From positions 1 through 31,080 of IMG/VR virus record IMGVR_UViG_3300018424_000129: a stretch of 31,080 nt of DNA. One strand, written 5' to 3'. The translations under genes and the position numbers were made by a program. Source of the stretch: a virus. The notes under the pieces are model-generated. The model ran no database searches, was not told where the DNA came from, and saw nothing but the letters and a program-made list of their open reading frames with translations. Below, piece after piece: positions 1-18,945 of this stretch (the stretch's first letter is position 1; each line of letters starts with the position of its first letter).

Positions 1-2
1 CA

Positions 3-113
3 AAATGGAATCTTCCTAAAGCTGCACAACATTGCGGTCTATCTAACAAAGAAATGAAGATTACATTCAACGAGTATTGTAATTTCCATCCCGCAACTTA
101 TAAACCTGAATAG
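3..113 (+). CDS. C-terminal end of an unidentified protein (5' truncated)
   Basis: An open frame enters from the left edge and ends at TAG 111-113, giving 36 residues. The visible tail includes KAAQHCGLSNKEMKITFNEYC and ends with HPATYKPE. The composition looks like real protein, with mixed charge, two Cys and no low complexity. It stops 8 bases before the tRNA, which fits the tight spacing of the window. The family cannot be named from this tail. The start and most of the gene lie outside the window. Confidence 0.6.
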   Translation, partial: KWNLPKAAQHCGLSNKEMKITFNEYCNFHPATYKPE

Positions 114-121
114 GTTTTTAT

Positions 122-205
122 GGGACGGTGGCGGAAGTGGTAGACGCACCAGACTTAAAATCTGTTGGGAGTATTCCCGTGAGGGTTCAAGTCCCTCTCG
201 TCCTA
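122..205 (+). tRNA. trnL: tRNA-Leu (anticodon UAA)
   Basis: The acceptor stem GGGACGG (122-128) pairs with TCGTCCT (198-204), using two G-U pairs, with discriminator A at 205. The anticodon loop is CTTAAAA between CCAGA and TCTG, so the anticodon is UAA, reading UUA/UUG. A long variable arm and a T-loop GGTTCAAGTCC are present, as expected for a class II Leu tRNA. The 3' CCA is not encoded. T4-like cyanophages commonly carry a few tRNAs that suit their AT-rich codon use, and UUA fits that pattern. Confidence 0.95.
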
Positions 206-207
206 CT

Positions 208-249
208 AGGGAGGAGTACAAATGGTCCCGTATAAGAGGACGCCTCCCT
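208..249 (+). terminator. nested hairpin after the tRNA; possible terminator or processing signal
   Basis: AGGGAGG (208-214) pairs with CCTCCCT (243-249), and inside it GTCC pairs with GGAC around a short loop. Only a weak T run follows (TTTAAAA), so it is not a textbook intrinsic terminator. It sits 2 bases after the tRNA and just before a late-type promoter, so it may end tRNA read-through or mark a processing site. The pairing is seen in the sequence; the role is inferred. Confidence 0.5.
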
Positions 250-255
250 TTAAAA

Positions 256-262
256 CTAAATA
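256..262 (+). promoter_or_regulatory. T4-type late promoter box CTAAATA
   Basis: CTAAATA lies 18 bases upstream of the ATG at 281. T4 late promoters have only a -10 element close to TATAAATA, and cyanophage versions are of the CTAAATA/ATAAATA type. The same box occurs before 25852, and ATAAATA occurs before the fibers at 2416 and 24678. It would drive the 281-2371 group late in infection. Confidence 0.6.
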
Positions 263-280
263 TTAGGAAACGGTAATAAT

Positions 281-580
281 ATGAAGTTAAAAATTACCAA
301 ATCGTATTGCTGGCATGATCCTAGAGAATTGGGAACACCAGAACGAGTGGTTAAAATGTACTTCATAAATGGAATACCTTTTACCTGGGATGAATTAACT
401 CCAGAAGAAGAATCTCAGTACTCTTATACAATCGCTGCAAATACTCATCAACGCAGATATACTGCAGAAGATTTATTTTTAGCGTCTGGATACTTAATTA
501 TGGAAGAGTGTCATCCTTGTTTTTTTGATGTAGAATTAGAGAATCCAGAAATGCTGGCAGAATTAGATGACGGATTTTAG
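281..580 (+). CDS. hypothetical protein, 99 aa
   Basis: I do not recognise this protein. It starts with MKLKITKSYCWHD and is rich in aromatic and acidic residues, with an acidic tail ending ELDDGF. No membrane segment or signal peptide is visible. The ATG is placed 18 bases after a CTAAATA late-type box with a short purine stretch (AGGAAA) before it. Its last 14 bases overlap the start of the next gene, which suggests translational coupling to that 2OG oxygenase. A role as partner of the oxygenase is possible but not shown. Confidence 0.75.
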   Translation: MKLKITKSYCWHDPRELGTPERVVKMYFINGIPFTWDELTPEEESQYSYTIAANTHQRRYTAEDLFLASGYLIMEECHPCFFDVELENPEMLAELDDGF

Positions 581-1106
581 AGAACCAAATGGAATCTTTA
601 CGGTTCCTTTTTTTGTGGAAAAAATTGATTTGGATCGAATTGATTTTGTAGATGCAGAATTCAACAGATCTTTTTTGAGTCAAGTTAATACGACACTTGG
701 TAATGATTCTTTGACGGATGAGTCATATCAATACCTTTGCAGTGTAATATCAGAATGTATCGGACAATTTTCTGATAGACCATTTGTAATTGGTCAGGTA
801 TGGAGAAATGAATATGATGAGAATGATTGGCAAGATCCACATATTCATTCTGGAGCACAATGGAGTTTTATAATCTACGATACTGTAGATCATTCTAGAA
901 CAGTATTCATGAATCCTGCTCGCAAAGAAATGATGAATCAGTGGGGATTATATGCTAATATATTGCCAATGGATTTTATTCCTAAAATTCCATCTGGACA
1001 CATTGTAATCTTCCCATCTTGGATAGAACATTTTGTGATGAGTGGGAATGTTGGAACAACGATCTCTGGAAACATTTACTTAGAACAACCTCCACAAGGA
1101 CCATAG
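567..1106 (+). CDS. 2OG-Fe(II) oxygenase-like protein, 179 aa
   Basis: A double-stranded beta-helix oxygenase is suggested by DPHIHSGAQWSFIIY (H92, H94) followed by SGHIVIFPSWIEHFV with the distal His at H155. The 'G-x-I-V-I-F-P-S-x-x-x-H' strand is typical of phage 2OG oxygenases. These enzymes normally hydroxylate a substrate using 2-oxoglutarate, O2 and Fe(II). Two points are unusual. The first iron motif reads H-x-H rather than H-x-D, and the usual Arg that binds 2-oxoglutarate is not obvious in the last strand (GTTISGNIYL). It overlaps the gene before it by 14 bases and is one base from the SpoChoClust-like gene after it, so the three are probably co-expressed. Substrate unknown. Confidence 0.75.
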   Translation: MTDFREPNGIFTVPFFVEKIDLDRIDFVDAEFNRSFLSQVNTTLGNDSLTDESYQYLCSVISECIGQFSDRPFVIGQVWRNEYDENDWQDPHIHSGAQWSFIIYDTVDHSRTVFMNPARKEMMNQWGLYANILPMDFIPKIPSGHIVIFPSWIEHFVMSGNVGTTISGNIYLEQPPQGP

Positions 1107-1107
1107 T

Positions 1108-2208
1108 ATGTTTGATGCATCTATACATGATTATGATTATTTGAACTATGGTCTTTCTGACATTGTTCTTTCCTGTGTTCAAAAATATTATTCAAGTGTG
1201 GATGATTTATCGACTTTACATTTAGAAGTCCCATATAAAAAAATTGGTGAACTTGTAAAGTTAGTTGGTAAAGATCTTGCAGATACTAATTTTTATGAGA
1301 AGTTTGATGAGATTGTTGCAAGATACATCCTTCCAGAGTTGGATAGTGATATTCTTATACAAAAGTTTGGTAATATTAGAATAACTGTCCCCAATCAGGA
1401 TAAGAACGGAACAGTTCTTCCATTTCATCAGGGAAGATGGGTTGGCAATGGTCTGGGGTTGAGAACTATTTGGTTACCATTTACTGAGTGTTACGATAGT
1501 AATTCTCTTCAAATAATTCATTTAGATGCAAGTAGATTGATTACCAAACAGTGTTTGGAGCAGGATTGGTCATATGAAAAATTTCAAGAAGCGTGTAATC
1601 AAATCTGTAAACCAGTGAATATTGATAAGAGTCAATTTCTTTTGTTTACCCAAGAACATATTCATGGTGCTGTTCCTAATAGAACAAATAAGACTCGGGT
1701 TAGTATTGACGTAAGAATTTTACTCAGAGGACAACAACCACATCGTAAATGGCCAGGGGCATACTTTAGGATTCCTGGGGAGAGTATCATTCATTCTCGT
1801 AATGTTGCAATTCATGATGATGAGAACGTGGTGATGTACGCTGAATATGATGGATTTAAGACAAAACATATTGATTTATATTTTCAAACACTAGTAGTTA
1901 GAGAATATTGTGTTAGAATGGGGTATACATTCCCACATCAAACTGGTGACAATGAGGGTAGAAATCATAACTACCTTGAGTATTTGATTGATAAGGGTAA
2001 TGTAAATCATATCTTGATGTTTAGTATTTTCTCTCTTCCTGATAAAAAAGAAAGGAGACAATATATTATGGATCTTGCACTAAGTAGGGGCGTAAAGTTA
2101 CATTTTGCAAACGAAGAGTTTGTATTGCATAATCAGGATATGCTAGATAGAATAGAATATCTAAGAAATTTTACATCTGATTGGAGCAATCCTGCATATG
2201 AGAATTAA
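1108..2208 (+). CDS. fused PhyH/SpoChoClust-type 2OG oxygenase and SpoChoClust-type protein
   Basis: Two domains are visible. Residues about 90-205 look like a phytanoyl-type 2OG oxygenase: LPFHQGRW (H107), GLRTIWLPF, then EHIHGAVPN (H186) and TRVSIDVR (R197). Residues about 243-355 match, from memory, the 'sporadic carbohydrate cluster protein, LIC12192 family': YDGFKTKHIDLYFQTLVVRE, then MFSIFSLPDKKERRQYIM, then KLHFANEEFVL. In bacteria the two families are encoded as separate neighbours within surface-polysaccharide gene clusters; here they appear fused. The iron-motif position after H107 is Gly (H-Q-G), where Asp is expected, so the domain may be inactive or may bind halide as non-haem iron halogenases do. 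The start is ATG one base after the preceding stop. Family naming is recall; the residues are seen. Confidence 0.75.
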   Translation: MFDASIHDYDYLNYGLSDIVLSCVQKYYSSVDDLSTLHLEVPYKKIGELVKLVGKDLADTNFYEKFDEIVARYILPELDSDILIQKFGNIRITVPNQDKNGTVLPFHQGRWVGNGLGLRTIWLPFTECYDSNSLQIIHLDASRLITKQCLEQDWSYEKFQEACNQICKPVNIDKSQFLLFTQEHIHGAVPNRTNKTRVSIDVRILLRGQQPHRKWPGAYFRIPGESIIHSRNVAIHDDENVVMYAEYDGFKTKHIDLYFQTLVVREYCVRMGYTFPHQTGDNEGRNHNYLEYLIDKGNVNHILMFSIFSLPDKKERRQYIMDLALSRGVKLHFANEEFVLHNQDMLDRIEYLRNFTSDWSNPAYEN

Positions 2209-2371
2209 TCTCTGGTATTGTGGAGAGATGGGGCAATGGAGGTGGACGTTAACTGATAACCGTCGTCCCATCTGTCATCAAGAATCTGGGCAAAGACCTA
2301 ACCTTAGGGATGCTATGTCAGACGTAGCAAACACGGTTGAGTATGTGCTGGAACATAAATACCACGAGTAA
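2198..2371 (+). CDS. small conserved-looking protein, 57 aa
   Basis: ATG at 2198 overlaps the end of the preceding gene by 11 bases and runs to TAA 2369-2371. It begins MRINLWYCGEMGQWRWTLTD and has a central block SGQRPNLRDAMSDVANTVEY. Four Trp/Tyr in the first 16 residues and an amphipathic C-terminal helix suggest a compact folded protein. Similar short W-Y-C-G proteins seem familiar from cyanophage genomes, but I cannot name a function. It fills what would otherwise be a 207-base gap before the fiber gene. Confidence 0.75.
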   Translation: MRINLWYCGEMGQWRWTLTDNRRPICHQESGQRPNLRDAMSDVANTVEYVLEHKYHE

Positions 2372-2381
2372 TTTGTTATGA

Positions 2382-2388
2382 ATAAATA
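2382..2388 (+). promoter_or_regulatory. T4-type late promoter box ATAAATA before the giant fiber
   Basis: The sequence TGAATAAATAAATC lies 27 bases upstream of the fiber ATG at 2416, in the only non-coding gap here. ATAAATA fits the T4 late -10 element, and a virion fiber should be expressed late. Overlapping ATAAATAAAT registers make the exact box uncertain by 4 bases. Confidence 0.65.
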
Positions 2389-2415
2389 AATCATAACAGC
2401 AACTAGTGTAATAAA

Positions 2416-5400
2416 ATGGGTCTTAGTCGCTTAGATAATTTTCTGAAAAATAGTAGAGGCGATATCCTTTACGTTGATCCTTCAAGTATTGACTCAACTG
2501 ATAGTATTGAGAACCAAGGTAACTCTCTCGTTAGACCATTTAAAACTATCCAGAGAGCACTGATTGAGGCAGCAAGATTCTCCTATCAGAAGGGACTCGA
2601 TAATGATAGATTTAGTAGAACAACTATTATCGTTTACCCTGGTGAGCACTTAATTGATAATAGACCTGGATGGATTCCAGTTCATGATGCCCCTATTACT
2701 GGTAATAATTGGTTGACTCGTAGTGGTACGAGTTCAAATGACCTTACCCAATTTACATTAGACACCAACTTTGATATTGACAGTTTTGAGAATGATCTTT
2801 ATAAGATGAACTCTGTCTACGGTGGTGTAATTATCCCCCGTGGTACATCTATTGTTGGTATGGACCTTCGTAAAACGAAGATTCGTCCCAAGTTTGTTCC
2901 TGATCCTGCAGACGATGCGATCAAACAGACGTGCTTATTCCGTGTAACTGGTACTTGTTACTTCTACCAGTTTACATTCTTTGATGCTGACCCAAATGCT
3001 AGGGTATTCAAAGATTATGGAACCACAGAGTACGTTCCTAACTTCTCTCACCATAAGGTAACTTGTTTTGAATATGCTGATGGCGTAAATCCAGTTGGAT
3101 TTAATGATAGTTTCTTAAACTATACAACTACAAGAACTGACCTTGACATTTACTATGAGAAGATTGGATTAGTATATGGTCCTTCTAGTGGAAGAGAAGT
3201 ACAACCAGACTATCCAGACTCTGCTCTTGATATTCAGACCAAGATTGATGAATATAGAATTGTTGGATCTAAGGGTCAGAATGTTGGTATCAGCAGCATT
3301 AAAGCTGGTGATGGATCTACCTCTAGCACAACAATTACAGTTGATCTTGTAGAATCTCTCTCTGGATTAGATGTAGATACACCAATTAGAATTGAAGGTA
3401 TTCCTACAGGTGGATATAACGGATCATTCGTAATTGATAGTGTTCAGAGTAGTACAAGAATTACATATGAGGTCTCTACACCTCCAGCAAATGCACTTCC
3501 TAGTATCGTATCTGGTGCTCCTACACTTAACATTGTTGTTGACTCTGTAACTTCAGCATCTCCATACATCTTTAACTGCTCACTCCGTTCTGTATACGGT
3601 ATGTGCGGTCTCCATGCTGATGGTAGCAAAGCAGATGGATTTAAATCCATGGTTGTTGCCCAGTTTACTGGTATTGGTCTGCAGAAGGATGACAGGGCAT
3701 TTGTTAAGTATAATGCAGTATCTGGTGTTTATGAAGACAGCACAGCAGTAAGTAATCTTCACACAAACACTTCTGCAATCTACAAACCAAATTATGAGAA
3801 CTTCCACATTAAGGCATCTAATGATGCCTTCTTGCAGTTAGTCTCTGTGTTCGCAATTGGATATGCAAATCACTTTGTTGCTGAGTCTGGTGGTGACCAC
3901 TCAATTACAAACTCTAACTCCAACTTTGGTGCAAAAGCGATTGTATGTAGTGGATTTAGAAATGATGCATTCCCCAGAGATGATACTGGATTCATCACTC
4001 ATATTCTACCACCTCAAGCAATTAGTAATGAAGAGGTAACTATTGAATTTGCTGCAATTGACGTTCAGCAAACCATTGACGTTGGTAATGACAATAGACT
4101 TTATATTTACAATGAAAGTAATGAAAATGTTCCACCAAAATCTGTTTTAGAGGGATATAGAATTGGTGCCAAGAAGGACGATGCCCTTAAAGTAATTATT
4201 AACGTTGGTGCTCAACCAGAGACCAAGACTGCTAAGATTATCATGCCCGAGACCCAGGGGCAAGGTATATACGAGACATCATCTAAGAAGATCTCTACTG
4301 TTGGTAGAACTGCTATTGGTATTAATAGTATTACCTCTAACATCTTTACTCTTACAGACTTCCACCTTTTTGAGAGTGGTGAATCTGTACGTATCTTGAG
4401 TGACGATGGCGAACTTCCAGATGGTCTCGATCACAATAGAGTTTACTATGCAATTACTGCTGGTATTAATACTGATCAGATTAAGTTAGCACAAACTCTT
4501 AATGACACCATTAGTGCTTCTTCTGTTATTGTAAACAGTAAGGGTGGTATTCTCCAGATTGAATCTAGGGTATCTGATAAAAAGTCTGGTGACATTGCAC
4601 ACCCAATCCAGTATGATACAACTCGTGGTCAGTGGTATATTACTGTTGCAGATAACAATGAAATTTATAACTCTATTGTTGGATTAGGAACTGCTGTACT
4701 TGGTGCTGCTACTCCTAAAACATTCTTCAGTAGAACTCCTGACAATAGATCTCTTGAAGATAGAATCTATAAGGTAAGATATGTTGTACCAAGAGATTCT
4801 ACTGTCTTAGGAAGACCTCCAAAAGATTCGTTTGTTCTGCAAGAATCTAGTCAGACTGTTGGATTTACTAATCAGGAAGTCGCTAAGTTTAAGAGTGTAA
4901 ACCCAGCAATTCTCTCAAACACCTCAGAATTAAGAAATCCAAGACTTATTTCTGGCGCTGTATGGGATGGAATTGTTGGTATTGCTACCATCAAAACAGA
5001 AACCCCTCACGAGTTGTCTGTTGGATCGAAGGTACAACTGTTTAACATCGTATCTTCTGCTAACACAACTGGACTTGGATATACTGGATTTAATGGTGTA
5101 TTTGAAGTTACTGGAAGACCAGATAGAAAGTCATTTACTGTTGGTTTAACAACTAACCCAGGTTCTTTTGACAACAATATAAACCTTAGAACAACAGAAC
5201 TTCCTAGATTTGAAAGAAAAGAATTTAATAATACATTATTTGTTTACAGAAAAGAGGAAGTTCAGGAATATATTCCAAACGCAAAGGATGGTGTTTACCA
5301 CTTAACTTTAATTGACTCTTCTTCAAAACCTGCTGTAACTCCATTCCAGGATCTTAAGTTTAGTCAACCACTTAAAAATCTCTATCCACAACTTGATAGA

Positions 5401-8232
5401 GACAACCCAACATCTGACCCAGATCAGACCAGAACCTTTGCTCTTCCAACTCCAATTGGACTTACTGAGGTAAACAATCCTAAGAATAGTCTTACAAAGG
5501 AAGTTATTAACAAGAGAACCAGAGATTATCTGACTGGATTTAATATCACACAAATTGAATCTTCTTCTGGAATTGCACATACAATTACTACCGAAGAAGA
5601 TCATGGATTTAATTCAATAACAAAGGTTGGTATTACCAGTGCTGGTTTGAATTATGGTGATGGATCTGGTAGCACTCAAACACTTTATAATGCTACTCTT
5701 GTTGGATTTGCTGGATCAACTACTGGTAATTTTGCTACAGCAAACGTTGAAATTGACGCTTCTGGTGCAATCTCTGCTATTAAGATTGTAGATGGTGGAT
5801 CTGCATTTGGAATTGGTAATACTCTTGCTGTCAGTGGTATTGGAACAACCACAGGATTTATTCAGGGTTATGTTACGGTTCAGCAAATTCACAATAGCAT
5901 TGGCGACGTATTCAGAATCGATGGTATTAGAGATGATAGATTTGTAGATTATAACAATCTCTATAGAATTACATCTGTTGAGACTGGAAATACATCTCAA
6001 ATAAACGTATCATCAGCAAGTACGGTTTATTATAGAGAGCAATTTGCTGCTCCAGCAAGCGTTACTGGAATTAATACTAATGGTCTTACTAATGTAAACT
6101 CCGCTGTTCTGTCTGATGTTACTGCATATCTGACAGGAGAGGCGATTGGAATTAGTTCAATAACATATGACAACATAAGTGGAATTGCTAGTATTGCAAC
6201 TAATAAATCTCATGGATTCTTAGTTGGTAATAGTGTTGTTATTGGTGGTGTCTCTGCTCCAGTAATTAATGGTCATTGGAATGTTGATACTGTTTATAAT
6301 GTTGCTAGTCTTGCCGTAAATGTTGGAGTAGGTACAACAGTAATTGCTCCAACAGGTGGTGGATACATTTATCCAACAGGTGTTAACGCACAAAATGCAT
6401 TAATTGATTTTGCAGATGAGGCAGCATCTTCAAGACTTGTTCCAAGTTATGCTGGTATTACCACAACATTGGCAGCAGCATTAAATGATCCTACACTCAA
6501 CACTTTGACAGTTACTAATGCAACCCATATGGGATGGGATGCTGGTGATTATATTGTTATTGACAATGAGTTCATGAGAATTAGTGAGTCTGTCACTACA
6601 GATACTGCTATTGACGTATTCCGTGGATTATTTGGATCTCAGAAACAAAATCACCCAACTGGTTCTGTTGTAAGGAAGGTTAAATTTGCGCCAGTAGAAT
6701 TTAGAAGAAACTCTATCATTCGTGCATCTGGTCACACGTTTGAATATCTTGGTTTTGGTCCTGGTAACTATTCAACTGCTCTTCCTGAAAGACAGGATAG
6801 ACAGTTCAGACAAATTGAAAGACTTCTCTCTCAGTCAGTATCTGTAAATGGTGGTACACCATTCTATAATGGTCTGGATGATGAAGGTAATGCCTACACT
6901 GTTAATAAATTCACTAGTGGATCTACGGGTCAAGACCTGATTACAAATGCACCAGTACCAACAGTAACTGGTGAGGATATCACTAGTGATACTGGTGCAG
7001 TTGGATTTGATGTTGATTCAACAGAGCAACTTACCGTTGCAAGAGGATTGAAAGTCGATGGTGGTAAAGAGAATGATATCATCTCAGAATTCAACGGACC
7101 TGTTGTATTCAACGAGAAGGTAACTATCAACAGTCCTGTTGAAGCAAATTCGCTGCTTGTTCAGGGTAACCAGACAATTGCTAGAGAGTATACTGTTGGT
7201 ATTGCTACACCACAAGTTGCTGGCAACGTTGGTAATGTTGTATATGATGCAGAACCAAGATCTGGTGGTGAACTTGGATGGGTCTACACTAATGATAATA
7301 ATTGGAAGAAGTTTGGTCCAATTCAATCTGCAGCAGACAACTATTATGTTGGTCTCTTCAGCGGTGCATTCAAGGGTGATGGTTCTGGTCTGTCTAACGT
7401 ATCTGACGTTTGGGTATTCGATGGTGTTGGTATCTCGACAACTGCTAACGTTGGTATCGAGACTACATCAGCAAAACCAGGATATTCTCTCTATGCTAGT
7501 GGTCCTGTTCTGTTTGAGAACAACGTTGAGTTTAGATCTCAGTCAATTCTTTGGAATGTTCCAGATGGATTTATTATTAACACTGGTATCACAACGTTCA
7601 ATCAGCAGGTTAACTTCAATACCATCAAAGCAATTGGCATCTCTACCTTCCAGAATGATATTCTGATTACTACAGATGCTGCAACAACTGGTGACCTTGA
7701 AGGTAACTCTCTGAGATTCTTACAAACAGACCCCGCACTTAATGCCGCTTACGAATATGGTGGTCTTAAGTTTGAGGGTAATGACATTGGTAACAGCGGT
7801 GTACGTGGTTACATTAAAGGTGTCTCGGAAGGAACTTCTGGTCAGTTTGGTTTGGTCTTTGGAACACAAGGATCGGGAGCGTCTTCACCACAAGAGAGAT
7901 TGAGAATTGCGAACACTGGTAATGCAACCTTCTCTGGCACTGTCACTGCAAACTCCGATGAAAAACTTAAAGAGAATGTTGTTGGTATCAGCAATGCTCT
8001 TGGTAAGGTTCTTGATCTGAGAGGTGTATACTTCAATCGTATTGGTCAACCTGAGCGTGAGATTGGTGTTATTGCACAAGAGGTTGAGAAAGTTCTTCCA
8101 GAATTGGTACATGAGGGACCAGATGGTGTCAAGTCAGTTGCATACCAGAATATGGTTGCGGTTCTGATTGAGGCAATTAAGGAACAGCAGGAACAGATCA
8201 ACGAACTCAAGGCGAGATTGGACAGTCTCTAA
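2416..8232 (+). CDS. giant tail fiber/virion structural protein with C-terminal S74 chaperone, 1938 aa
   Basis: The N-terminus (about 1-60) has SRGDILYVDPSS and RPFKTIQRALIEAA, a form common at the start of cyanophage fiber proteins. The long middle is rich in Gly, Ser, Thr and Asn and contains repeated beta modules, for example TETPHELSVGSKVQLFNI, TEEDHGFNSITKV and TNKSHGFLVGNSVVIGGV. The C-terminus (from about 1840) is an intramolecular chaperone of the endosialidase/S74 type: NSDEKLKENV, then EIGVIAQEVEKVLPELV, then a coiled-coil end KEQQEQINELKARLDSL. In S74 proteins a Ser/Lys pair cleaves the chaperone off after trimer folding; here S1847 and K1852 are in place. The protein is probably a trimeric host-recognition fiber. 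A late-type box precedes it and a strong terminator follows. Confidence 0.9.
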   Translation: MGLSRLDNFLKNSRGDILYVDPSSIDSTDSIENQGNSLVRPFKTIQRALIEAARFSYQKGLDNDRFSRTTIIVYPGEHLIDNRPGWIPVHDAPITGNNWLTRSGTSSNDLTQFTLDTNFDIDSFENDLYKMNSVYGGVIIPRGTSIVGMDLRKTKIRPKFVPDPADDAIKQTCLFRVTGTCYFYQFTFFDADPNARVFKDYGTTEYVPNFSHHKVTCFEYADGVNPVGFNDSFLNYTTTRTDLDIYYEKIGLVYGPSSGREVQPDYPDSALDIQTKIDEYRIVGSKGQNVGISSIKAGDGSTSSTTITVDLVESLSGLDVDTPIRIEGIPTGGYNGSFVIDSVQSSTRITYEVSTPPANALPSIVSGAPTLNIVVDSVTSASPYIFNCSLRSVYGMCGLHADGSKADGFKSMVVAQFTGIGLQKDDRAFVKYNAVSGVYEDSTAVSNLHTNTSAIYKPNYENFHIKASNDAFLQLVSVFAIGYANHFVAESGGDHSITNSNSNFGAKAIVCSGFRNDAFPRDDTGFITHILPPQAISNEEVTIEFAAIDVQQTIDVGNDNRLYIYNESNENVPPKSVLEGYRIGAKKDDALKVIINVGAQPETKTAKIIMPETQGQGIYETSSKKISTVGRTAIGINSITSNIFTLTDFHLFESGESVRILSDDGELPDGLDHNRVYYAITAGINTDQIKLAQTLNDTISASSVIVNSKGGILQIESRVSDKKSGDIAHPIQYDTTRGQWYITVADNNEIYNSIVGLGTAVLGAATPKTFFSRTPDNRSLEDRIYKVRYVVPRDSTVLGRPPKDSFVLQESSQTVGFTNQEVAKFKSVNPAILSNTSELRNPRLISGAVWDGIVGIATIKTETPHELSVGSKVQLFNIVSSANTTGLGYTGFNGVFEVTGRPDRKSFTVGLTTNPGSFDNNINLRTTELPRFERKEFNNTLFVYRKEEVQEYIPNAKDGVYHLTLIDSSSKPAVTPFQDLKFSQPLKNLYPQLDRDNPTSDPDQTRTFALPTPIGLTEVNNPKNSLTKEVINKRTRDYLTGFNITQIESSSGIAHTITTEEDHGFNSITKVGITSAGLNYGDGSGSTQTLYNATLVGFAGSTTGNFATANVEIDASGAISAIKIVDGGSAFGIGNTLAVSGIGTTTGFIQGYVTVQQIHNSIGDVFRIDGIRDDRFVDYNNLYRITSVETGNTSQINVSSASTVYYREQFAAPASVTGINTNGLTNVNSAVLSDVTAYLTGEAIGISSITYDNISGIASIATNKSHGFLVGNSVVIGGVSAPVINGHWNVDTVYNVASLAVNVGVGTTVIAPTGGGYIYPTGVNAQNALIDFADEAASSRLVPSYAGITTTLAAALNDPTLNTLTVTNATHMGWDAGDYIVIDNEFMRISESVTTDTAIDVFRGLFGSQKQNHPTGSVVRKVKFAPVEFRRNSIIRASGHTFEYLGFGPGNYSTALPERQDRQFRQIERLLSQSVSVNGGTPFYNGLDDEGNAYTVNKFTSGSTGQDLITNAPVPTVTGEDITSDTGAVGFDVDSTEQLTVARGLKVDGGKENDIISEFNGPVVFNEKVTINSPVEANSLLVQGNQTIAREYTVGIATPQVAGNVGNVVYDAEPRSGGELGWVYTNDNNWKKFGPIQSAADNYYVGLFSGAFKGDGSGLSNVSDVWVFDGVGISTTANVGIETTSAKPGYSLYASGPVLFENNVEFRSQSILWNVPDGFIINTGITTFNQQVNFNTIKAIGISTFQNDILITTDAATTGDLEGNSLRFLQTDPALNAAYEYGGLKFEGNDIGNSGVRGYIKGVSEGTSGQFGLVFGTQGSGASSPQERLRIANTGNATFSGTVTANSDEKLKENVVGISNALGKVLDLRGVYFNRIGQPEREIGVIAQEVEKVLPELVHEGPDGVKSVAYQNMVAVLIEAIKEQQEQINELKARLDSL

Positions 8233-11889: not shown

Positions 11890-13128
11890 ATGACACCTAT
11901 GCAACTTCGCCCTCACCAGTCTGAGTCCCTTGATGTTATGTCTCAAGTGGACAAGGGCATCATTGTGGTTCCGACAGGTGGTGGCAAGACCCTTATTGCC
12001 ATCATGGATGCCAAGCGTCAGTTTGAGTCTGGGGACAAGACTATTGTGGTTGTTGCTCCTCGTCTCATGCTTGCTCGACAGTTGTCTGCCGAGTTTACTG
12101 AGCACATCATGGATGCCTCTGTGATGCATGTTCACTCTGGTAATGATCTTCCATACTTCACAACTACTAAACCCAACGAGATTTATTCTTGGTGTTATCA
12201 TACTGGGGGTAATAAGTTGATCGTTACCACTTATCATTCCCTGCATCGTATTCAAGAAGCAGGTATTGTTGTTGACTCTATCTATTTTGATGAAGCGCAC
12301 AATTCTGTCAAAAAGAACTTTTTTGATTCCACACGGCATTTCTCTAATACTAGCAACCGCTGCTACTTCTTCACTGCTACTCCTAAGTATTCTTCTACTT
12401 ACAAAAAGCACGGGATGAATGACACCAGCGTGTATGGTCAGATCATTTACAATGTCCCTGCTCCCCGTCTAATTAGTAACGGTTCTATCCTTCCCCCTAA
12501 GATCAATGCTATTCCCATTGGTTCCTTCCGTGAGAAGGGTGAGGAAGCAGCAGAACGTGACTGTATGACACTTCTGGATACTTTGTACAATGAAGAGCAC
12601 ATGGAGAAGGTTCTGATTGCTGCTCCTAATACAAAGGTGATGATCCGTATGCTTGCCACTACTTCTTTTATGGAGGATGTGCAATCCATGGGGTATGACC
12701 TTCTTTGGATCACCAGTAAGCACGGTGCGTTCCTTAACGACAAGAAGATTACCCGCGAACAGTTCTTCAACCTTGTACGTGAGTTTGGTGCAGATCCCGA
12801 CAAGAAGTTCATTGTTTTGCACTACTCCATTTTGAGTGAGGGTATCTCTGTTCCTGGTTTGACTTCCCTGGTGCTTATGCGTCAGATGAATGTCATTGAG
12901 ATGTGTCAATCTGTTGGGCGTGTCATTCGCCTTCATTTGGATGACATCAAGAGGATTCAGGATGGATCTCTCACCCCTGGCAATCTTCAGGACTATACCA
13001 AATCTTTTGGTTTGGTTCATGTTCCCGTCTACAGCAACGTTGGTATCTCAACAGTCAAACGTCTTCAGAATGTTGTTGACACAGTATTTGTTCAAGGTCA
13101 ACCCGCTATCTCCACTATCAAACGATGA
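11890..13128 (+). CDS. SF2 DEAH-type DNA helicase, 412 aa
   Basis: Helicase motifs are in order: QLRPHQ (5-10), Walker A PTGGGKT (28-34), DEAH (134-137), TATP (162-165) and motif VI QSVGRVIR (340-347). The length is close to UvsW-type phage helicases, although UvsW itself is usually longer, so I do not assign the symbol. It would move on or unwind DNA with ATP, perhaps in recombination, replication restart or with the nearby methyltransferase. The ATG at 11890 is chosen over the upstream TTG at 11836, because the latter lies inside the previous gene and would translate through the terminator. It overlaps the next gene by ATGA. Confidence 0.88.
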   Translation: MTPMQLRPHQSESLDVMSQVDKGIIVVPTGGGKTLIAIMDAKRQFESGDKTIVVVAPRLMLARQLSAEFTEHIMDASVMHVHSGNDLPYFTTTKPNEIYSWCYHTGGNKLIVTTYHSLHRIQEAGIVVDSIYFDEAHNSVKKNFFDSTRHFSNTSNRCYFFTATPKYSSTYKKHGMNDTSVYGQIIYNVPAPRLISNGSILPPKINAIPIGSFREKGEEAAERDCMTLLDTLYNEEHMEKVLIAAPNTKVMIRMLATTSFMEDVQSMGYDLLWITSKHGAFLNDKKITREQFFNLVREFGADPDKKFIVLHYSILSEGISVPGLTSLVLMRQMNVIEMCQSVGRVIRLHLDDIKRIQDGSLTPGNLQDYTKSFGLVHVPVYSNVGISTVKRLQNVVDTVFVQGQPAISTIKR

Positions 13129-13553
13129 CAGAAGACTACCGCTACTATCCAAAACAATATCAATTTGTTATTGGGATTACTTGGGAGCACATTGACAAAC
13201 AAATTCAATACGAAAAAGAGATTGAGACTTATAGTAAGATTAGTGATACAACAGATCTTGTAGTTAATTGTGGTGTTTATCCTGGACTGCTTCAAAACAT
13301 TCGTATGAAGTTCTCCAAGCATGGATACAATGATATGCATATCTATTCTTCCCGTCATAAGGAAGCAGTAACCATGGGTAGACACAATGACGATCAAGAT
13401 GTTTTGATTGTACAATCTCTTGGTAGGATGATGTATGTGTTTGACAATGGTGATCAGGTCACTCTAAACCCAGGTGATGGGTTGTATATACCCAAATTTG
13501 TTCATCACAATCCCGTCCACATTGAACCCAGAATTACTGTAAGTTTGTCATGA
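13125..13553 (+). CDS. JmjC/cupin-type oxygenase-like protein, 142 aa
   Basis: The C-terminal half carries a JmjC/RoxA-like core: GRHNDDQDVLIVQSLGR gives H87-x-D89 for iron and the usual Q-x-x-G-R after it; NPGDGLYIPKFVHHNPV gives the second His at H127 or H128. Such proteins hydroxylate ribosomal or other proteins with 2-oxoglutarate, but at 142 residues this one is much shorter than RoxA/YcfD and lacks their C-terminal domains. The N-terminal 60 residues are unassigned. The ATGA overlap with the helicase and the next gene implies coupled translation. Hydroxylase activity is inferred from the motif. Confidence 0.72.
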   Translation: MTEDYRYYPKQYQFVIGITWEHIDKQIQYEKEIETYSKISDTTDLVVNCGVYPGLLQNIRMKFSKHGYNDMHIYSSRHKEAVTMGRHNDDQDVLIVQSLGRMMYVFDNGDQVTLNPGDGLYIPKFVHHNPVHIEPRITVSLS

Positions 13554-13783
13554 CTGAACCAACTAAAAAAGAACTCCGAGACATCTACAATTTTTACAAG
13601 GATTGTACTGATGGGTTTGTGACTAGGGATGGATATGCTGCTATCCCCATAATTGGTAAAAAATCATTCATGGTGGTGTATAATGGTGAACACCTGAAGG
13701 AGTGTAGAACTGAAAAGTCTGCTATGACCTTTATCAAAAAACATCGCACTCAGGCAAAACCTGGGACAGTATTTGTAACATGA
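13550..13783 (+). CDS. hypothetical protein, 77 aa
   Basis: I do not recognise this protein. It starts MTEPTKKELRDIYNFYKDC, is basic toward the C-terminus (FIKKHRTQAK) and has no membrane segment. The alternation in KKSFMVVYNGEHLKEC suggests a small alpha/beta fold. It overlaps both neighbours by ATGA and is the first of a run of small coupled genes behind the JmjC-like protein. Confidence 0.7.
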   Translation: MTEPTKKELRDIYNFYKDCTDGFVTRDGYAAIPIIGKKSFMVVYNGEHLKECRTEKSAMTFIKKHRTQAKPGTVFVT

Positions 13784-13974
13784 GGACAAAATTTATTTGT
13801 GTAACACCAATCAGTCCAAGAGCAAACCTCATTTTTGAGAGTAGTATGCTAAAATTTCATTCATGTCGTATAATGGAGGACAAGGAAGATAAGTATCTCC
13901 TGGAATCTCTTAACAAAGAATGTTGTTTTTGGGTAAACAAAAAAGGTGACATCAATTGGAGGATTGAAAAATGA
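13780..13974 (+). CDS. hypothetical protein, 64 aa
   Basis: No family recognised. The protein is short and mixed-charge with four Cys (C7, C29 and the pair in NKECCFWVNKKG). The Cys spacing does not match a zinc ribbon I know. It starts with an ATGA overlap on the preceding gene and ends in an ATGATG overlap with the next, which supports real translation. Confidence 0.65.
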   Translation: MRTKFICVTPISPRANLIFESSMLKFHSCRIMEDKEDKYLLESLNKECCFWVNKKGDINWRIEK

Positions 13975-14195
13975 TGATGGAATCTAATCCACATCCAGAC
14001 ACTTTAGTGCAGATTACCTGCGATAAAGAAGGTCTCAAGACCATGATTAGTGCTGCAATCGCTGCTATTCAGCATGGGGATAACTGGAATTTTGGAGACG
14101 AATATGATATGGATCTAACTCCATATCATGAAATGAGGGATTCTCTCATCAAAAAATATACAGAGGTTTATGGTGATGAAGATTTCACAAACTGA
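13971..14195 (+). CDS. hypothetical protein, 74 aa
   Basis: No family recognised. It has a helical segment KEGLKTMISAAIAAIQHG and an acidic aromatic middle NFGDEYDMDLTPYHEM. ATG ATG ATG repeats at 13971-13979 give possible starts three or six bases apart. It overlaps the next gene by 20 bases if that starts at 14176. Confidence 0.7.
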   Translation: MMMESNPHPDTLVQITCDKEGLKTMISAAIAAIQHGDNWNFGDEYDMDLTPYHEMRDSLIKKYTEVYGDEDFTN

Positions 14196-14358
14196 ACTAA
14201 AGCATCAACGTCTCCAGGCATGGTTGCGTGAGCACAAGTGTGACGATATTGAGTATCTTGGTAATAAACAAGGTGAACATTGGTATCGTGTTGGAGAATA
14301 CGAGATAACTGCTGATCAGTTTGAAGACATTGAATTTGTTGGATATGTCGATGATTGA
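14176..14358 (+). CDS. hypothetical protein, 60 aa
   Basis: No family recognised. It starts MKISQTELKHQRLQAWLREH and ends EFVGYVDD. The ATG at 14176 is chosen over the ATG at 14170 because the GAGG at 14163-14166 is 9 bases from the former and only 3 from the latter. Its GYVDD end overlaps the MIEE start of the next oxygenase by 8 bases, a junction repeated at 18421. Confidence 0.68.
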   Translation: MKISQTELKHQRLQAWLREHKCDDIEYLGNKQGEHWYRVGEYEITADQFEDIEFVGYVDD

Positions 14359-14845
14359 AGAATTTTTTGTATCTGAAAAGATAGTTGCATATTGCAAGTC
14401 TTTACTTAAACTTGCACTAACATCCCCTGAAATCTTTAAAGATAAAGTGGATAGTAGTTTAAGTCCGAATTGCTTTGCGACTACAAATCTGCTACAATTT
14501 CCACATGCATCTATCTTTTATAACTATATTGATGCGTTGAGAATAAAATGTGAAGAATTAATTAATATCAACTTAGAGTATACTTATTTGCACCTAGTAG
14601 ATTACTCTAATGGTGGAACAATGAGTGAGCACCAGCACGATCATAATGAAGATTATAGTTTTATCCTATATCTTAATACTTGTGAGGACGGTGCTACAGT
14701 TTTAACATTAAGAGAACCTTATAAAGTGCTACCTGTTACAAATAAGGTGCTATTATTCTCCTCGTACATCTCCCATATGTCAGAGTATTCTGATACCAAG
14801 AAGGTATTGGTGGGTGGACTTAAAGTAAAGCAAAAGGAGTCCTGA
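14351..14845 (+). CDS. 2OG-Fe(II) oxygenase-like protein, 164 aa
   Basis: SEHQHDHNEDYSFILYLN (H94, H96, D97, H98) followed by FSSYISHMS (H142) and KKVLVGGL fits the iron-binding core of a 2OG oxygenase. The cluster allows several iron-ligand readings; aligned with the other oxygenases here, the pair before the hydrophobic strand reads H-x-H (H94/H96) or H96-x-H98. No clear Arg for 2-oxoglutarate is seen; K150/K151 sit at that place. The ATG at 14351 is preferred to a longer start inside the previous gene. The next gene follows directly with an AAGGAGT ribosome site. Substrate unknown. Confidence 0.68.
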   Translation: MIEEFFVSEKIVAYCKSLLKLALTSPEIFKDKVDSSLSPNCFATTNLLQFPHASIFYNYIDALRIKCEELININLEYTYLHLVDYSNGGTMSEHQHDHNEDYSFILYLNTCEDGATVLTLREPYKVLPVTNKVLLFSSYISHMSEYSDTKKVLVGGLKVKQKES

Positions 14846-15028
14846 ATGGATTGCGCCAAACAAGAAAAGCGTCGTGATGCACTGGGTTTGTTTTATGAGA
14901 GTGTTCTCAAACCAGATCATGAACTGCGCCAGTGTGCTCACAATCAAAAATGCTATCATGAATTGATGGAGTGGCGTAGCGAAATTATAGAATATTTAGA
15001 TCGTAGACGTAATGAAGAGTTTAACTGA
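14846..15028 (+). CDS. hypothetical protein, 60 aa
   Basis: No family recognised. It is highly charged and helical, with a basic end EYLDRRRNEEFN and three Cys (C3, C30 and C36). A strong ribosome site AAGGAGT (14834-14840) lies inside the end of the previous gene, and the stop overlaps the next start by 17 bases. Confidence 0.68.
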   Translation: MDCAKQEKRRDALGLFYESVLKPDHELRQCAHNQKCYHELMEWRSEIIEYLDRRRNEEFN

Positions 15029-15557
15029 ACATTTTGTTAAAGATTGGGTAGTTCCCTTTTATCAATCTAAGATCATTAATTGGGAAGGTAAAAGAGAAAA
15101 ACTCCTCCAAATTTATGAGAAGTTTAGTAAACCACTCATGGAAGAGGGAGAACAGTTTACTGATTTTAATATGGGAACAACCCGATATGATAATTTGATT
15201 CAAAATGTTTTGTTTGATGATTTAAGATTGGGAGTTAAGGAGATGGGATTCGATAAGATTCCCACCATCCAGAATTCTTGGTTCCAAGTATATAACTTGG
15301 CACACTCCCATGCGGTACATAATCACGGAATGGGTGCTTTAAGTGTGGTTTGCTACATTAAATATGATCCAAAGTATCATAGACCTACAACATTTATTGC
15401 CCCCTTCCACAGTTTGGATGATGGTAATGTAATGGAATATGAACCGAGTGGTATTGAAGAGGGATCTATAGTAATATTTCCATCTTCTATTGCACATTAT
15501 GTTCCTACTAATCAATCTACGTCTGAGAGAATGGTCCTTGCATGTAATGTAAACTAA
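15012..15557 (+). CDS. 2OG-Fe(II) oxygenase-like protein, 181 aa
   Basis: AHSHAVHNHGMGALSVVCYI gives H103-x-H105, and GSIVIFPSSIAHYV gives H162; R173 (SERMVLACN) can bind 2-oxoglutarate. The overall form resembles the phage oxygenase family in which H-x-H-P and S-G-V-x-Y follow each other. The IVIFPS-x-x-x-H strand is shared with the protein at 567. It sits one base before the first radical SAM gene, which suggests a joint step. Substrate unknown. Confidence 0.78.
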   Translation: MKSLTEHFVKDWVVPFYQSKIINWEGKREKLLQIYEKFSKPLMEEGEQFTDFNMGTTRYDNLIQNVLFDDLRLGVKEMGFDKIPTIQNSWFQVYNLAHSHAVHNHGMGALSVVCYIKYDPKYHRPTTFIAPFHSLDDGNVMEYEPSGIEEGSIVIFPSSIAHYVPTNQSTSERMVLACNVN

Positions 15558-15558
15558 T

Positions 15559-16377
15559 ATGTTAAAAGTACCACACGAAATTCAATTACACTTAACTCAC
15601 TCATGTAATCTTACATGTGAGGGTTGTACCCATTACATGAATCAAGGACACTCTGGTTCTGTTAGTATTGAAGAGGCGGATGAGTGGTTCACTGCTTGGA
15701 GTAGACGGATTGCTCCAGAGAGAGTCACTCTCATGGGTGGAGAACCGTCTCTGCATAAAGACCTGACAAAGTTTGTGTATTTGACTAGAAGGAAGTGGAG
15801 ATATTCTCAAATTGATATTGTATCTAATGGATTCTTTTTGGACAGGCATCCAGACCTTTGGAAGGCACTGATTGATACCAACACAACTCTTGGTGTGTCT
15901 GTTCACTCTGATGGGGATCCAGAGTATAGGAAGAAGTTTGAACCAATCTACGCATTGATGAAGAACTGGATTGCTAAAGGTGCTCCAGTAGAAATGAGAC
16001 CATCTATTATCCACTGGATTCGACAGTATAAGGGATTTGGTGATAAGATGGAACCATATGAAGATAATGATCCCAAAAGTAGTTGGAAGATTTGTGTATC
16101 TAAAATGTGTGTGCAACTCCATGAGGGTAAACTCTGGAAGTGTCCTGCATTGGCGTATCTTCCCATGCAAGCAGACAAATATAATCTATCGGATAAATGG
16201 AATCCATATCTAAAGTATACTCCTCTTAGTCATGATTGTAGTAAAGAAGAATTGAAAGATTTCTTCACTCGTAGAGAAGAGTCTTTTTGCAAAATGTGTC
16301 CTGCTAAAGAGGACTATTTTACCCCAGAGAATCCTTTGCTACCAGTAAGTTATTGGAAGAAGAAATATGACACTTAA
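15559..16377 (+). CDS. radical SAM protein with Cys-rich C-terminus (paralog 1), 272 aa
   Basis: The radical SAM cluster motif CNLTCEGC (C16, C20, C23) is followed by LMGGEPSLHKDL (GGEP 60-63) for SAM binding. Additional Cys groups lie toward the end: KICVSKMCVQLHEGKLWKCP and SFCKMCPAK, reminiscent of SPASM/twitch domains that hold extra Fe-S clusters. Radical SAM enzymes generate a 5'-deoxyadenosyl radical for C-H chemistry. A closely similar copy lies at 19431. The gene overlaps the following oxygenase by 11 bases. The host must supply Fe-S assembly. The reaction is unknown. Confidence 0.88.
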   Translation: MLKVPHEIQLHLTHSCNLTCEGCTHYMNQGHSGSVSIEEADEWFTAWSRRIAPERVTLMGGEPSLHKDLTKFVYLTRRKWRYSQIDIVSNGFFLDRHPDLWKALIDTNTTLGVSVHSDGDPEYRKKFEPIYALMKNWIAKGAPVEMRPSIIHWIRQYKGFGDKMEPYEDNDPKSSWKICVSKMCVQLHEGKLWKCPALAYLPMQADKYNLSDKWNPYLKYTPLSHDCSKEELKDFFTRREESFCKMCPAKEDYFTPENPLLPVSYWKKKYDT

Positions 16378-17128
16378 TTTATCTAAAGAACAAGAAGATA
16401 TTCTTAATCAACTTGCTGATAAGGCAGGAGTATCTGCTAAAAGTAGACTTGATGAAATAATTAAGGATGAGTATTATAGATCATTTAGAGTAGTTGGACC
16501 CACTGGTTGTGAAGATCCCTATTGGAATGACGATAGGGATTTTGAATACTTTGATTTTTGTGGTAACACAATCTATAGAGCATATAATATGCTCACCAGA
16601 TATCATATGGACAATCTTCTTGATGAGATTGATGACGAATTGCGGACATGTGAAGATAAGTGGGATAGATCTGTAGAGGCAACCAATCAAATATCCAAAA
16701 GAAAACTAACACATAAGACAAGTTGGTATACTTTTTTTAGGATGGTCAAGAAACACCTGTATAATTATGCAGAGGTAACAAAGAATCCCAGAGTCAAAGA
16801 ATATAAGGTTCAGTCATACTGGGCAAAGAGGATGAAGGGAACTAATCCAGATGACTATAAGAATGAACTATACATAAACTATAGGAATAGTCACAGTCAT
16901 GAGAATTTTGATTTGGGGATGATTTATTATCTCAACAATCCATCACGGATCTATGGAACTTTGATTGAGAATGGTGATAGAGAGATAATTATTCCAGGAG
17001 ATGAGAATTCTTTGTTGATTCATCACTCACATATTAACCATCAACCAGTGATGCCACCACCGACGATAGCGAATAAGTATTATCGCTGTGTAATAGTTGT
17101 TGACTTTATGCACCCCTCAAAAACATGA
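16367..17128 (+). CDS. 2OG-Fe(II) oxygenase-like protein, 253 aa
   Basis: The last 90 residues carry the oxygenase core: NSHSHENFDLGMIYYLNNP (H176-x-H178), then ENSLLIHHSHINHQP (distal His H222 or H225), then R240 in KYYRCVIVVDF. The first 170 residues are charged and helical (EQEDILNQLADKAG) with no family I recognise; this is longer than the other oxygenases here. It overlaps the radical SAM gene before it and the small gene after it (ATGA). Iron-motif variant H-x-H again, instead of H-x-D. Confidence 0.7.
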   Translation: MTLNLSKEQEDILNQLADKAGVSAKSRLDEIIKDEYYRSFRVVGPTGCEDPYWNDDRDFEYFDFCGNTIYRAYNMLTRYHMDNLLDEIDDELRTCEDKWDRSVEATNQISKRKLTHKTSWYTFFRMVKKHLYNYAEVTKNPRVKEYKVQSYWAKRMKGTNPDDYKNELYINYRNSHSHENFDLGMIYYLNNPSRIYGTLIENGDREIIIPGDENSLLIHHSHINHQPVMPPPTIANKYYRCVIVVDFMHPSKT

Positions 17129-17358
17129 ACGCTACCGACAGGATTAAATACTTTAGTATAGTCAGTAAGATAAACAAGGGTAATTTTGATGACATCACTC
17201 AGGATGAATACCTTTGGTTGCAGAAGAATCCAAATGTCCTGAAAAAAATGAACCAAGTCAGGAAAAAAAGAGAGATTCTAAACTCTAGCAAAGGAACAAT
17301 GAACACAATTGAAGAAATACTTTTTATCTTAGACTTGTCAGATAGGATGTATCGGTGA
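17125..17358 (+). CDS. hypothetical protein, 77 aa
   Basis: No family recognised. The protein is basic and helical (KKMNQVRKKREILNSSK) and could bind nucleic acid. ATGA overlap with the preceding oxygenase supports translation. An extended -10 promoter for the HNH gene overlaps its 3' end and stop. Confidence 0.65.
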   Translation: MNATDRIKYFSIVSKINKGNFDDITQDEYLWLQKNPNVLKKMNQVRKKREILNSSKGTMNTIEEILFILDLSDRMYR

Positions 17359-17364
17359 TATAAT
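17335..17364 (+). promoter_or_regulatory. sigma70-like promoter for the HNH gene
   Basis: TTGTCA (17335-17340), an 18-base spacer, and TATAAT (17359-17364) preceded by TGA, an extended -10. This is among the best host-type promoters in the window. It overlaps the first possible ATG of the HNH gene, so a transcript starting near 17371 would use the ATG at 17387. Confidence 0.6.
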
Positions 17365-17863
17365 GTCCCAACACCTAGTAACTTGTATGGACCACTTAAA
17401 GATCGCACCATATCAAACGGTTCTAGTTCTCAATTCAAGTTATGAACCAATTAACTTCACTAATTGGAAGAGAGCGGTAATCTTAGTTCTCAAAGAGAAG
17501 GTACAAGTGTTATCATCCAGAGTAGTTAGATTGTTGAGTTATATCAGAGTCCCAGTGAATAGACTTGCTAAGAGTCGTCCATCAAGATCGATGATATACA
17601 AGAGAGACAGAAACTCTTGCCAATACTGTGGCGCAACAAGTAGGTTGACTATTGATCATGTCATACCTAGAAGTAAAGGTGGTGATGACAGTTGGGAAAA
17701 TTTGGTTGTAGCATGTTCAAGATGTAATACCCTTAAGAGTGATAAATTACTTGAACAAACTAAATTGAAGCTCAGAAAGCAACCAAGAGCACCATGGAGT
17801 TCAGTTGCGTTTGATTTGGAAGAATGCAATGTTCCTGAATGGCGTGAATACAGTTACTCATAG
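17363..17863 (+). CDS. HNH endonuclease, 166 aa
   Basis: PYQTVLVLNSSYEPINFTNW is the form seen in a cyanobacterial and cyanophage HNH family. The catalytic part has two Cys pairs, CQYC (86-89) and CSRC (118-121), for zinc, with DH (98-99) and N113 as the HNH residues. It would nick or cut DNA. It may be a free-standing homing-like gene placed within the oxygenase cassette. The start may be ATG 17387 (MDHLKIAPYQ) instead of 17363, as suggested by the overlapping promoter; neither has a clear ribosome site. Followed 10 bases later by an oxygenase with its own strong ribosome site. Confidence 0.88.
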   Translation: MSQHLVTCMDHLKIAPYQTVLVLNSSYEPINFTNWKRAVILVLKEKVQVLSSRVVRLLSYIRVPVNRLAKSRPSRSMIYKRDRNSCQYCGATSRLTIDHVIPRSKGGDDSWENLVVACSRCNTLKSDKLLEQTKLKLRKQPRAPWSSVAFDLEECNVPEWREYSYS

Positions 17864-17873
17864 GAGTTTATAA

Positions 17874-18428
17874 ATGTTTTTTCGTAAGTTGAATAAACAA
17901 TTTGTTGTTGATCATTACAGCAAAAAAGGTAAAAAGATTGAGTATGGATTGGATACTCCCATTGGATTCATGGGTATCAAGTATTCTTATGTACATACCA
18001 CAAAAGATGAAGATCTCTTACAAGTAATTCCAGAAGATCATAGGGATAAATGCACCCTATCTCTGATGGAACTTAACTATCAAATTCCTCCACATACTGA
18101 TAGTGATATAGAAGCAATTGTCAACTTCTATATTAAAACAGATCGGTGCGTCACTCAGTTTTACTATCCACCAGCGGCGGATGTAGATACTCAAAAGATT
18201 GCTAATCAAACAGACGGTGCAATCTTCCATGAGGGGCATCTTAAAAAGGCAGTTAGATTTATGGCACAACCTGGAGATGCTTATCTCTTGGATGTATCTA
18301 AACCACATTCTGTTATTCCGACAGAACCTGGACTGACAGATCGTAAATGTATCTGTTTGCAGATTCTTTATAAGTCTTTTGATGAAGCAGTTGAGATGTT
18401 GAAAAAAACGGGGTATATCGATGATTGA
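17874..18428 (+). CDS. 2OG-Fe(II) oxygenase, 184 aa
   Basis: QIPPHTDSDIEAIVNFYIKT gives H74-x-D76 and GDAYLLDVSKPHSVIP gives H145; R157 (DRKCICLQI) is the likely 2-oxoglutarate ligand. This is a complete standard facial triad, unlike the H-x-H group nearby. AGGAG at 17863-17867, starting within the previous stop, is a good ribosome site for ATG 17874. Its GYIDD end overlaps the MIEI start of the next gene, as in the 14176/14351 pair. Target unknown. Confidence 0.8.
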   Translation: MFFRKLNKQFVVDHYSKKGKKIEYGLDTPIGFMGIKYSYVHTTKDEDLLQVIPEDHRDKCTLSLMELNYQIPPHTDSDIEAIVNFYIKTDRCVTQFYYPPAADVDTQKIANQTDGAIFHEGHLKKAVRFMAQPGDAYLLDVSKPHSVIPTEPGLTDRKCICLQILYKSFDEAVEMLKKTGYIDD

Positions 18429-18945
18429 GATTATTGACAATTACCTTCCTCAACGTGAATATGACACTATCCGTGCATATTTTGAGGGAGATATGGATGG
18501 TGGAGCAACTCATAATTCATGTACTTGGATGTATTATCCTGGTATTACTTTGGATAATGATGGGCATTTCCAATTTGTTCAGTTAATATTTTCGCAGTAT
18601 ACAATTCTAAGCGATTCATTTAATTTATTGTCTCCTATTATTCAGAAGGAGAGGATGTGTTCTATTGCTAGAATTAAAGCAAATTGTGTTATTAAAACAC
18701 CTGAGATAATTGAGTTTACCCAAGGATTCCACACGGATTTTAATAGTGATTTGATGACAGGCATTTACTACATCAATAGTAATGATGGATATACTTTGTT
18801 TGAAGATGGGACAAAGTGTGAGAGCGTTGCTAATAGATTTTGTAGATTTCCTGTTAGAACAAAACATACTGGAACAACGTGTACCAATACTAATCGTAGA
18901 TTGGTTCTTAACTTTAACTATTCTATCTATGATACAGATAATTGA
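18421..18945 (+). CDS. 2OG-Fe(II) oxygenase-like protein (tandem copy A), 174 aa
   Basis: QGFHTDFNSDLMTGIYYINS gives H104-x-D106, and RTKHTGTTC gives H149, followed by R159/R160 in RRLVLNF. The order HxD, 'TLFEDGTKC', distal His, Arg is that of prolyl-4-hydroxylase-like phage oxygenases. It is a clear paralog of the next gene, sharing IIDNYL, SIARIKANC and NDGYTLFEDGTKC. Overlaps: 8 bases with the previous gene and 17 with the next. Confidence 0.78.
   Translation: MIEIIDNYLPQREYDTIRAYFEGDMDGGATHNSCTWMYYPGITLDNDGHFQFVQLIFSQYTILSDSFNLLSPIIQKERMCSIARIKANCVIKTPEIIEFTQGFHTDFNSDLMTGIYYINSNDGYTLFEDGTKCESVANRFCRFPVRTKHTGTTCTNTNRRLVLNFNYSIYDTDN

Follow-up and report, generated by a model that had tools for sequence, protein, structure and literature searches.

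A cyanophage Fe(II)/2-oxoglutarate oxygenase family with an H-x-G iron site: a possible viral halogenase fused to a domain of predicted serine-recombinase fold

Among non-haem Fe(II)/2-oxoglutarate (2OG) enzymes, an H-x-G/A motif is a recognised signature of halogenases, the absence of the carboxylate letting a halide bind the iron (PMC7170919, PMC12346261). Searches for the motif are known to yield false positives (PMC12871659). AspH has H-x-G and two His ligands, holds water in the vacant place and hydroxylates its substrate, and the D-to-G variant of FIH retains some activity (PMC10947486, PMC13168262). In AspH, the water is held by an Asp, D721, located four residues before the distal His H725 (PMC13168262). 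In the plant halogenase DAH, the reverse exchange, G226D, is reported to bring back hydroxylation at the cost of halogenation (PMC7170919). The aliphatic Fe/2OG halogenases are few and come mainly from natural-product pathways. Flavin-dependent halogenases differ from the Fe/2OG enzymes in both fold and cofactor. It is to the flavin-dependent type that the cyanophage halogenase genes noted so far belong (tryptophan-halogenase-like enzymes, VirX1; PMC10452541). Our search of open-access papers turned up no account of an Fe/2OG halogenase from a virus.

Here, we examine a cyanophage gene whose product carries the H-x-G motif. The window, that is, the whole stretch of DNA that was analysed, comprises 31,080 nucleotides (IMG/VR record IMGVR_UViG_3300018424_000129), and the gene (1108–2208, + strand) encodes a 366-residue protein in which matches to TIGR04324 and TIGR04323 delineate an H-x-G 2OG-Fe(II) oxygenase domain and a second domain. 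Sequence comparison shows that Gly took the place of the Asp ligand at the root of one phage clade and has persisted there, as have the two His ligands and the Arg for 2OG. The leading interpretation, to which we assign slightly less than an even chance, is that the two-His Fe/2OG site accepts a halide, the reaction being halogenation at an aliphatic carbon in a small molecule. The fuller proposal, a viral non-haem Fe(II)/2OG halogenase family that arose via D-to-G in a carbohydrate-cluster oxygenase and is fused to a repurposed domain of serine-recombinase fold, is put forward tentatively, as one that we doubt rather more than we believe.

The codons at 1423–1434 (+ strand) read TTT CAT CAG GGA and encode F106-H107-Q108-G109, the proximal iron-site motif with Gly for Asp. 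H107-Q108-G109 occupies 1426–1434, in agreement with the earlier note on this DNA, which had read the first iron motif as H107-Q-G109. Between H107 and W122, the ORF and the bacterial TIGR04324 proteins align without gaps (HQGRWVGNGLGLRTIW versus HSDVWSGDSPFEVVVW), with W111, G113 and W122 in common, and the register of the site is therefore certain. H186 (1663–1665, + strand) is the predicted distal iron ligand and R197 (1696–1698, + strand) the predicted Arg for the C5-carboxylate of 2OG; both are invariant in 62/62 phage and 87/87 bacterial rows, so that the note's description of them as intact extends to the whole clade. A second Arg on the R197 strand, R203 (1714–1716, + strand), is present in 61 of the 62 phage rows and all 87 bacterial ones. 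Profile alignment pairs R197 with Arg248 of SyrB2 (SyrB2 numbering counted by hand) and R203 with SyrB2 Arg254.

We also considered whether the true H-x-D lies elsewhere in the ORF, but there is no other conserved candidate, and it is H107 and H186 that line up with the family's two His ligands. Another option was that the Asp had been lost by deletion of a single residue, since PtlH has HQDG at this place; the distance from H107 to W122 is the same as in the bacterial family, which indicates a substitution instead.

Relatives were collected from IMG/VR in two scans. The first, with the pattern LPxHQGxWxG, required HQG and is biased by construction; it gave 46 phage ORFs. The second used only residues 119–356, with the patterns FTQE[NH]IH and [GQ]QPHRKW, and left the site itself unused. 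It returned 92 cyanophage-type relatives, 80 of which were kept and examined. In this site-independent scan, every distinct phage relative in which the site is covered (56/56) has H-Q-G, with the distal His and the Arg invariant. The same column holds Asp in 87/87 distinct bacterial-type rows (Bradyrhizobium, Azospirillum, SAR11-like genomes and others), and further SAR11-like relatives have H-x-D as well. The alignment that the earlier note had called for thus finds Gly conserved in phages and Asp in the bacterial relatives, and the phage of the window is not alone; the pattern goes well beyond what chance would give. A distant SAR11-like group of oxygenases (L143, L144 and L145) has H-Y-E in place of H-x-D at this column.

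The closest sequence family is TIGR04324 (SpoChoClust_2, NCBIfam; a 2OG-Fe(II) oxygenase of 'sporadic carbohydrate clusters'), which residues 17–204 match with E 7e-25 and 88.1 bits. The distal His, the Arg, W111, G113 and W122 are common to both. The protein nevertheless lies outside TIGR04324, both by score and by triad: its 88.1 bits fall below the curated cut-off of 150 bits, as do the best matches of eleven further phage records (79.9–95.4 bits), and the HxD...H facial triad of the family is replaced by HxG in all phage rows. It differs further in having lost acidic and polar neighbours of the site, in being fused, and in belonging to a separate clade with a long stem.

The fusion, which is absent from the earlier note, joins the oxygenase to a TIGR04323 domain in the second half of the protein (residues 249–351; 59 bits, above the curated cut-off of 55). 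Both halves are present in 20/20 diverse phage members scanned. In 131 of 143 bacterial hits, a count that includes redundant loci, the start of a TIGR04323 ORF lies no more than about 45 bases from the end of the TIGR04324 domain, and no TIGR04324–TIGR04323 fusion was seen among these 143 hits. As the two are separate neighbouring genes in bacteria, the phage gene can be regarded as a fusion of operon partners, and the leading explanation of the ORF is a cyanophage cargo enzyme derived from the bacterial TIGR04324–TIGR04323 operon pair. It should be added that one of the baits was a consensus sequence; it made up one row in each of two small alignments used for finding loci, and the evidence comes from database loci only. 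Our search of the open-access literature for TIGR04323, TIGR04324 or 'sporadic carbohydrate cluster' found no papers. In four SAR11-like loci (L122, L123, L126 and L130), the TIGR04323 open frame is 356–394 residues long and may be fused to a further domain. One phage contig with an adjacent terminase-like gene (L006, IMGVR_UViG_3300047552_000915) seems to carry a whole sugar cluster: with gene names assigned by eye, it has a sedoheptulose-7-phosphate isomerase, an HldE-like kinase and nucleotidyltransferase, a transketolase pair, an HxD-type TIGR04324 gene, TIGR04323 and a methyltransferase.

The TIGR04323 domain (1819–2193, + strand) has a predicted serine-recombinase fold, on the basis of a model with pLDDT 87 and of Foldseek and VIA matches. 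When this domain is modelled alone, the highest-ranking VIA rows consist entirely of serine recombinases, with Z up to 13.0, as against at most 7.0 for unrelated folds. The Ser of the bacterial motif GYxxSR (20/24 bacterial rows) is a candidate catalytic residue, probably equivalent to the catalytic Ser of the recombinases. In the phages it is Tyr in 16 of 19 rows and Ser in 0/19, and since it is replaced, mostly by Tyr, recombination is not expected of the phage clade. TIGR04323 is apparently a repurposed recombinase domain. This family (the LIC12192 family, with proteins in L008–L133) sits in sugar biosynthesis clusters despite its predicted serine-recombinase fold.

In a maximum-likelihood tree, which has long branches and an uncertain sister group, the phage rows form one clade with support 100/99 and a long stem, so a single D-to-G event is sufficient to explain the data. 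Between the window and its relative L003 (78% identity), dN/dS is 0.066 in the catalytic core and 0.065 in the second domain, with synonymous sites near saturation. The Gly codon is GGA in the window and GGT in L003, the residue being retained. A recent mutation or a sequencing error was accordingly dismissed, as the Gly is fixed across the clade with a synonymous codon change. The monophyly of the clade (100/99) together with the low dN/dS of the core argues for a maintained substitution and not for decay.

These results bear on the alternative that the oxygenase domain is catalytically dead and survives as a binding module, with a sugar or 2OG as possible ligands, while the second domain does the job of the protein. 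The loss of the Asp ligand is in line with this option, as is the replacement of the GYxxSR residues that are conserved in the bacterial second domains. The residues of the metal and 2OG sites point the other way: the two His, the Arg for 2OG and the pocket around them show no variation even among relatives with as little as 34% identity to the window protein, and the 47 of 366 positions that are invariant in the clade include H107, Q108, G109, H186 and R197. A dead domain would not be expected to keep exactly the residues for the metal and 2OG. We consider this alternative improbable, and the degraded oxygenase of the earlier note is likewise disfavoured, in view of the invariant His, Arg and surrounding pocket and the low dN/dS.

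The model of the full protein has a mean pLDDT of 76, with roughly 66–98 in the oxygenase domain. The predicted fold is a PhyH-type Fe/2OG double-stranded beta-helix, with PtlH as the best structural match (VIA Z 16), CurA halogenase at Z 13.3, and SyrB2 among the Foldseek matches (4e-6). PtlH, the 1-deoxypentalenic acid 11-beta hydroxylase, also has a similar local sequence (FHQDG...RTFW), but unlike the window protein it keeps the Asp ligand, and it hydroxylates a terpenoid. A common fold, predicted as it is here, shows no function. A profile search of the PDB gave no significant sequence relative, halogenases included, with all hits above E 0.1. A resemblance to CytC3 near T120–Q135 was left unused, as it amounts to 4.3 bits and is partly general to the superfamily.

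We now come to what the Gly may do. The clade has features in common with the Fe(II)/2OG halogenases SyrB2, CytC3, CurA Hal, WelO5 and BesD: the H-x-G/A motif, the distal His and the 2OG Arg (retained in 62/62 rows each), and, in the predicted model, the PhyH-like fold that the window protein shares with CurA Hal and SyrB2. Unlike these halogenases, its nearest relatives are carbohydrate-cluster oxygenases, and it is known here from sequence and model. In the proposed mechanism, Fe(II) would be held by H107 and H186 and 2OG by R197, while Gly109 would leave an open coordination site at which the halide would bind; halogenation would then take place at an aliphatic carbon in a small molecule, for which a nucleotide sugar or a precursor of cell-surface sugars is the likeliest candidate. 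The chlorinating-enzyme model TIGR01762 matches 6/20 clade members, with a best E of 0.0015, far below its cut-off of 226 bits; HxD relatives match it too, and the match was therefore set aside as non-discriminating.

The surroundings of the site favour halide binding in two respects. The loss of the Asp coincides with the loss of neighbouring acidic and polar residues, S112 having changed to V, D114 to N and E118 to L, which leaves the surroundings of the site less acidic in the phage clade. In addition, the position of the water-holding Asp of AspH is Gln in the clade. Against halide binding, the clade has gained an invariant acidic residue, E183 (1654–1656, + strand), which lies three residues before the distal His and is found in 61/61 phage rows, the bacterial relatives having mostly Thr or Asn.

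E183 is also what an AspH-like reading would build on, in which the enzyme is a two-His hydroxylase that has water in the vacant ligand site and hydroxylates or otherwise oxidises its substrate; this might be a sugar, or else a residue in the tail fibre encoded next to it. AspH and the D-to-G variant of FIH show that Fe/2OG hydroxylation is possible with H-x-G (PMC10947486, PMC13168262), and E183, which is invariant and close to the distal His, could be the residue that holds the water. The clade resembles AspH in its H-x-G and its two His ligands (PMC10947486), and differs in the Asp at four residues before the distal His, which corresponds, with the equivalence taken from the spacing, to Gln182 in 61/61 phage rows; there is also no sequence match to AspH to be seen. 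Gln is present at this position in 84/87 HxD relatives as well, and the residue was thus unchanged by the loss of the Asp. Overall, we regard AspH-like hydroxylation as somewhat unlikely. From the earlier note's suggestion of a halogenase-like or otherwise altered enzyme, the altered site stands, with Gly fixed clade-wide; the halogenase-like part is the leading one and is unproven, since AspH hydroxylates with H-x-G.

Another option considered was that the enzyme is an ordinary oxygenase whose carboxylate ligand has moved, either E183 or D201 substituting for the Asp of position 109 at the iron. Both residues are invariant in the phage clade and non-acidic in the bacterial TIGR04324 rows, as such a replacement would have it. 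D201 is, however, also carried by relatives that retain HxD (L102, L141, L142 and L110) and by PtlH, which makes it unlikely as the replacement ligand, and E183 is located three residues before the distal His, in a predicted loop. This option is in our view very improbable. Halide binding is thus ranked first, above AspH-like hydroxylation, the non-catalytic module and the relocated ligand, in that order.

The genomic context identifies the phages as T4-like cyanophages. Directly downstream of the gene is a cyanophage tail-fibre protein (2416–8232, + strand), which marks the cargo interval and matches 460 records, nearly all from Synechococcus, Prochlorococcus and other cyanophages. Close to the opposite side of the interval is a tRNA-Leu (TAA; 122–206, + strand), and a tRNA-Leu is found in the same interval in isolates. 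Between the two are a small phage protein (phrog_4134; 281–580, + strand), a similar protein being found beside the gene in the inspected main-clade members, and a 2OG-Fe(II) oxygenase (phrog_81, PF13759; 567–1106, + strand), which is linked to the gene in some members of the clade. Also present in the window are a transaldolase gene and the beginning of a gene for 6-phosphogluconate dehydrogenase. In isolates, the interval from tRNA-Leu to fibre holds variable cargo, namely CpeT and a nearby gene annotated as ferrochelatase in S-SCSM1, and small ORFs in S-SM2 and RN05-S; the HQG gene can therefore be taken as cargo of this variable interval. In one contig (L254), CpeT stands beside the HQG gene.

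This arrangement touches both leading readings. The gene adjoins the tail-fibre gene in the inspected main-clade members, which would suit AspH-like hydroxylation of a fibre residue, but other cyanophages have other cargo on the fibre side of the interval, and adjacency need not mean substrate. As to halogenation of a sugar, the inspected main-clade members have no sugar genes right beside the gene, their neighbours being structural genes and small cargo, and this counts against the halide reading. The guess of a sugar-type substrate is based on the carbohydrate clusters of the family and on the GDP-mannose-dehydratase-like gene directly upstream of one member, which together suggest such a substrate. 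That member is a divergent contig (L283, IMGVR_UViG_3300021964_009676, 1–4747) with two divergent HQG paralogs in opposite orientation, at 34–35% identity to the window protein. The end of the GDP-mannose 4,6-dehydratase-like gene is also the start of one copy; the second copy is preceded by an aminotransferase-like gene and followed by an amidinotransferase-like one (the last named by eye).

In whole-protein searches at E 1e-3, the window protein matches none of the 50,697 deposited phage records (INPHARED) and nothing in PLSDB, and its oxygenase half has no match in PHROGs. The absence from the 50,697 phage records may explain why the gene has been overlooked. If the halogenase reading is true, cyanophages would have, in the course of infection, a capacity for aliphatic C–H halogenation, possibly of sugars, that bears no relation to their flavin halogenases. 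With at least 92 phage contigs, a fixed H-x-G and wide sequence diversity, the family offers a panel for asking whether D-to-G means halogenation or AspH-like hydroxylation, and the same panel bears on what the virus gains from either.

Finally, elsewhere in the window (13125–21678) there is a dense cluster with several small 2OG-Fe(II) oxygenase-like genes, radical SAM genes at 15559–16377 and 19431–20282, and a carbamoyltransferase at 20254–21678, a possible cassette for the modification of peptides or sugars. The PF13759 oxygenase at 15012–15557 has a weak secondary match to Asp_Arg_Hydrox (PF05118), and its proximal motif is H-N-H, not H-x-D.
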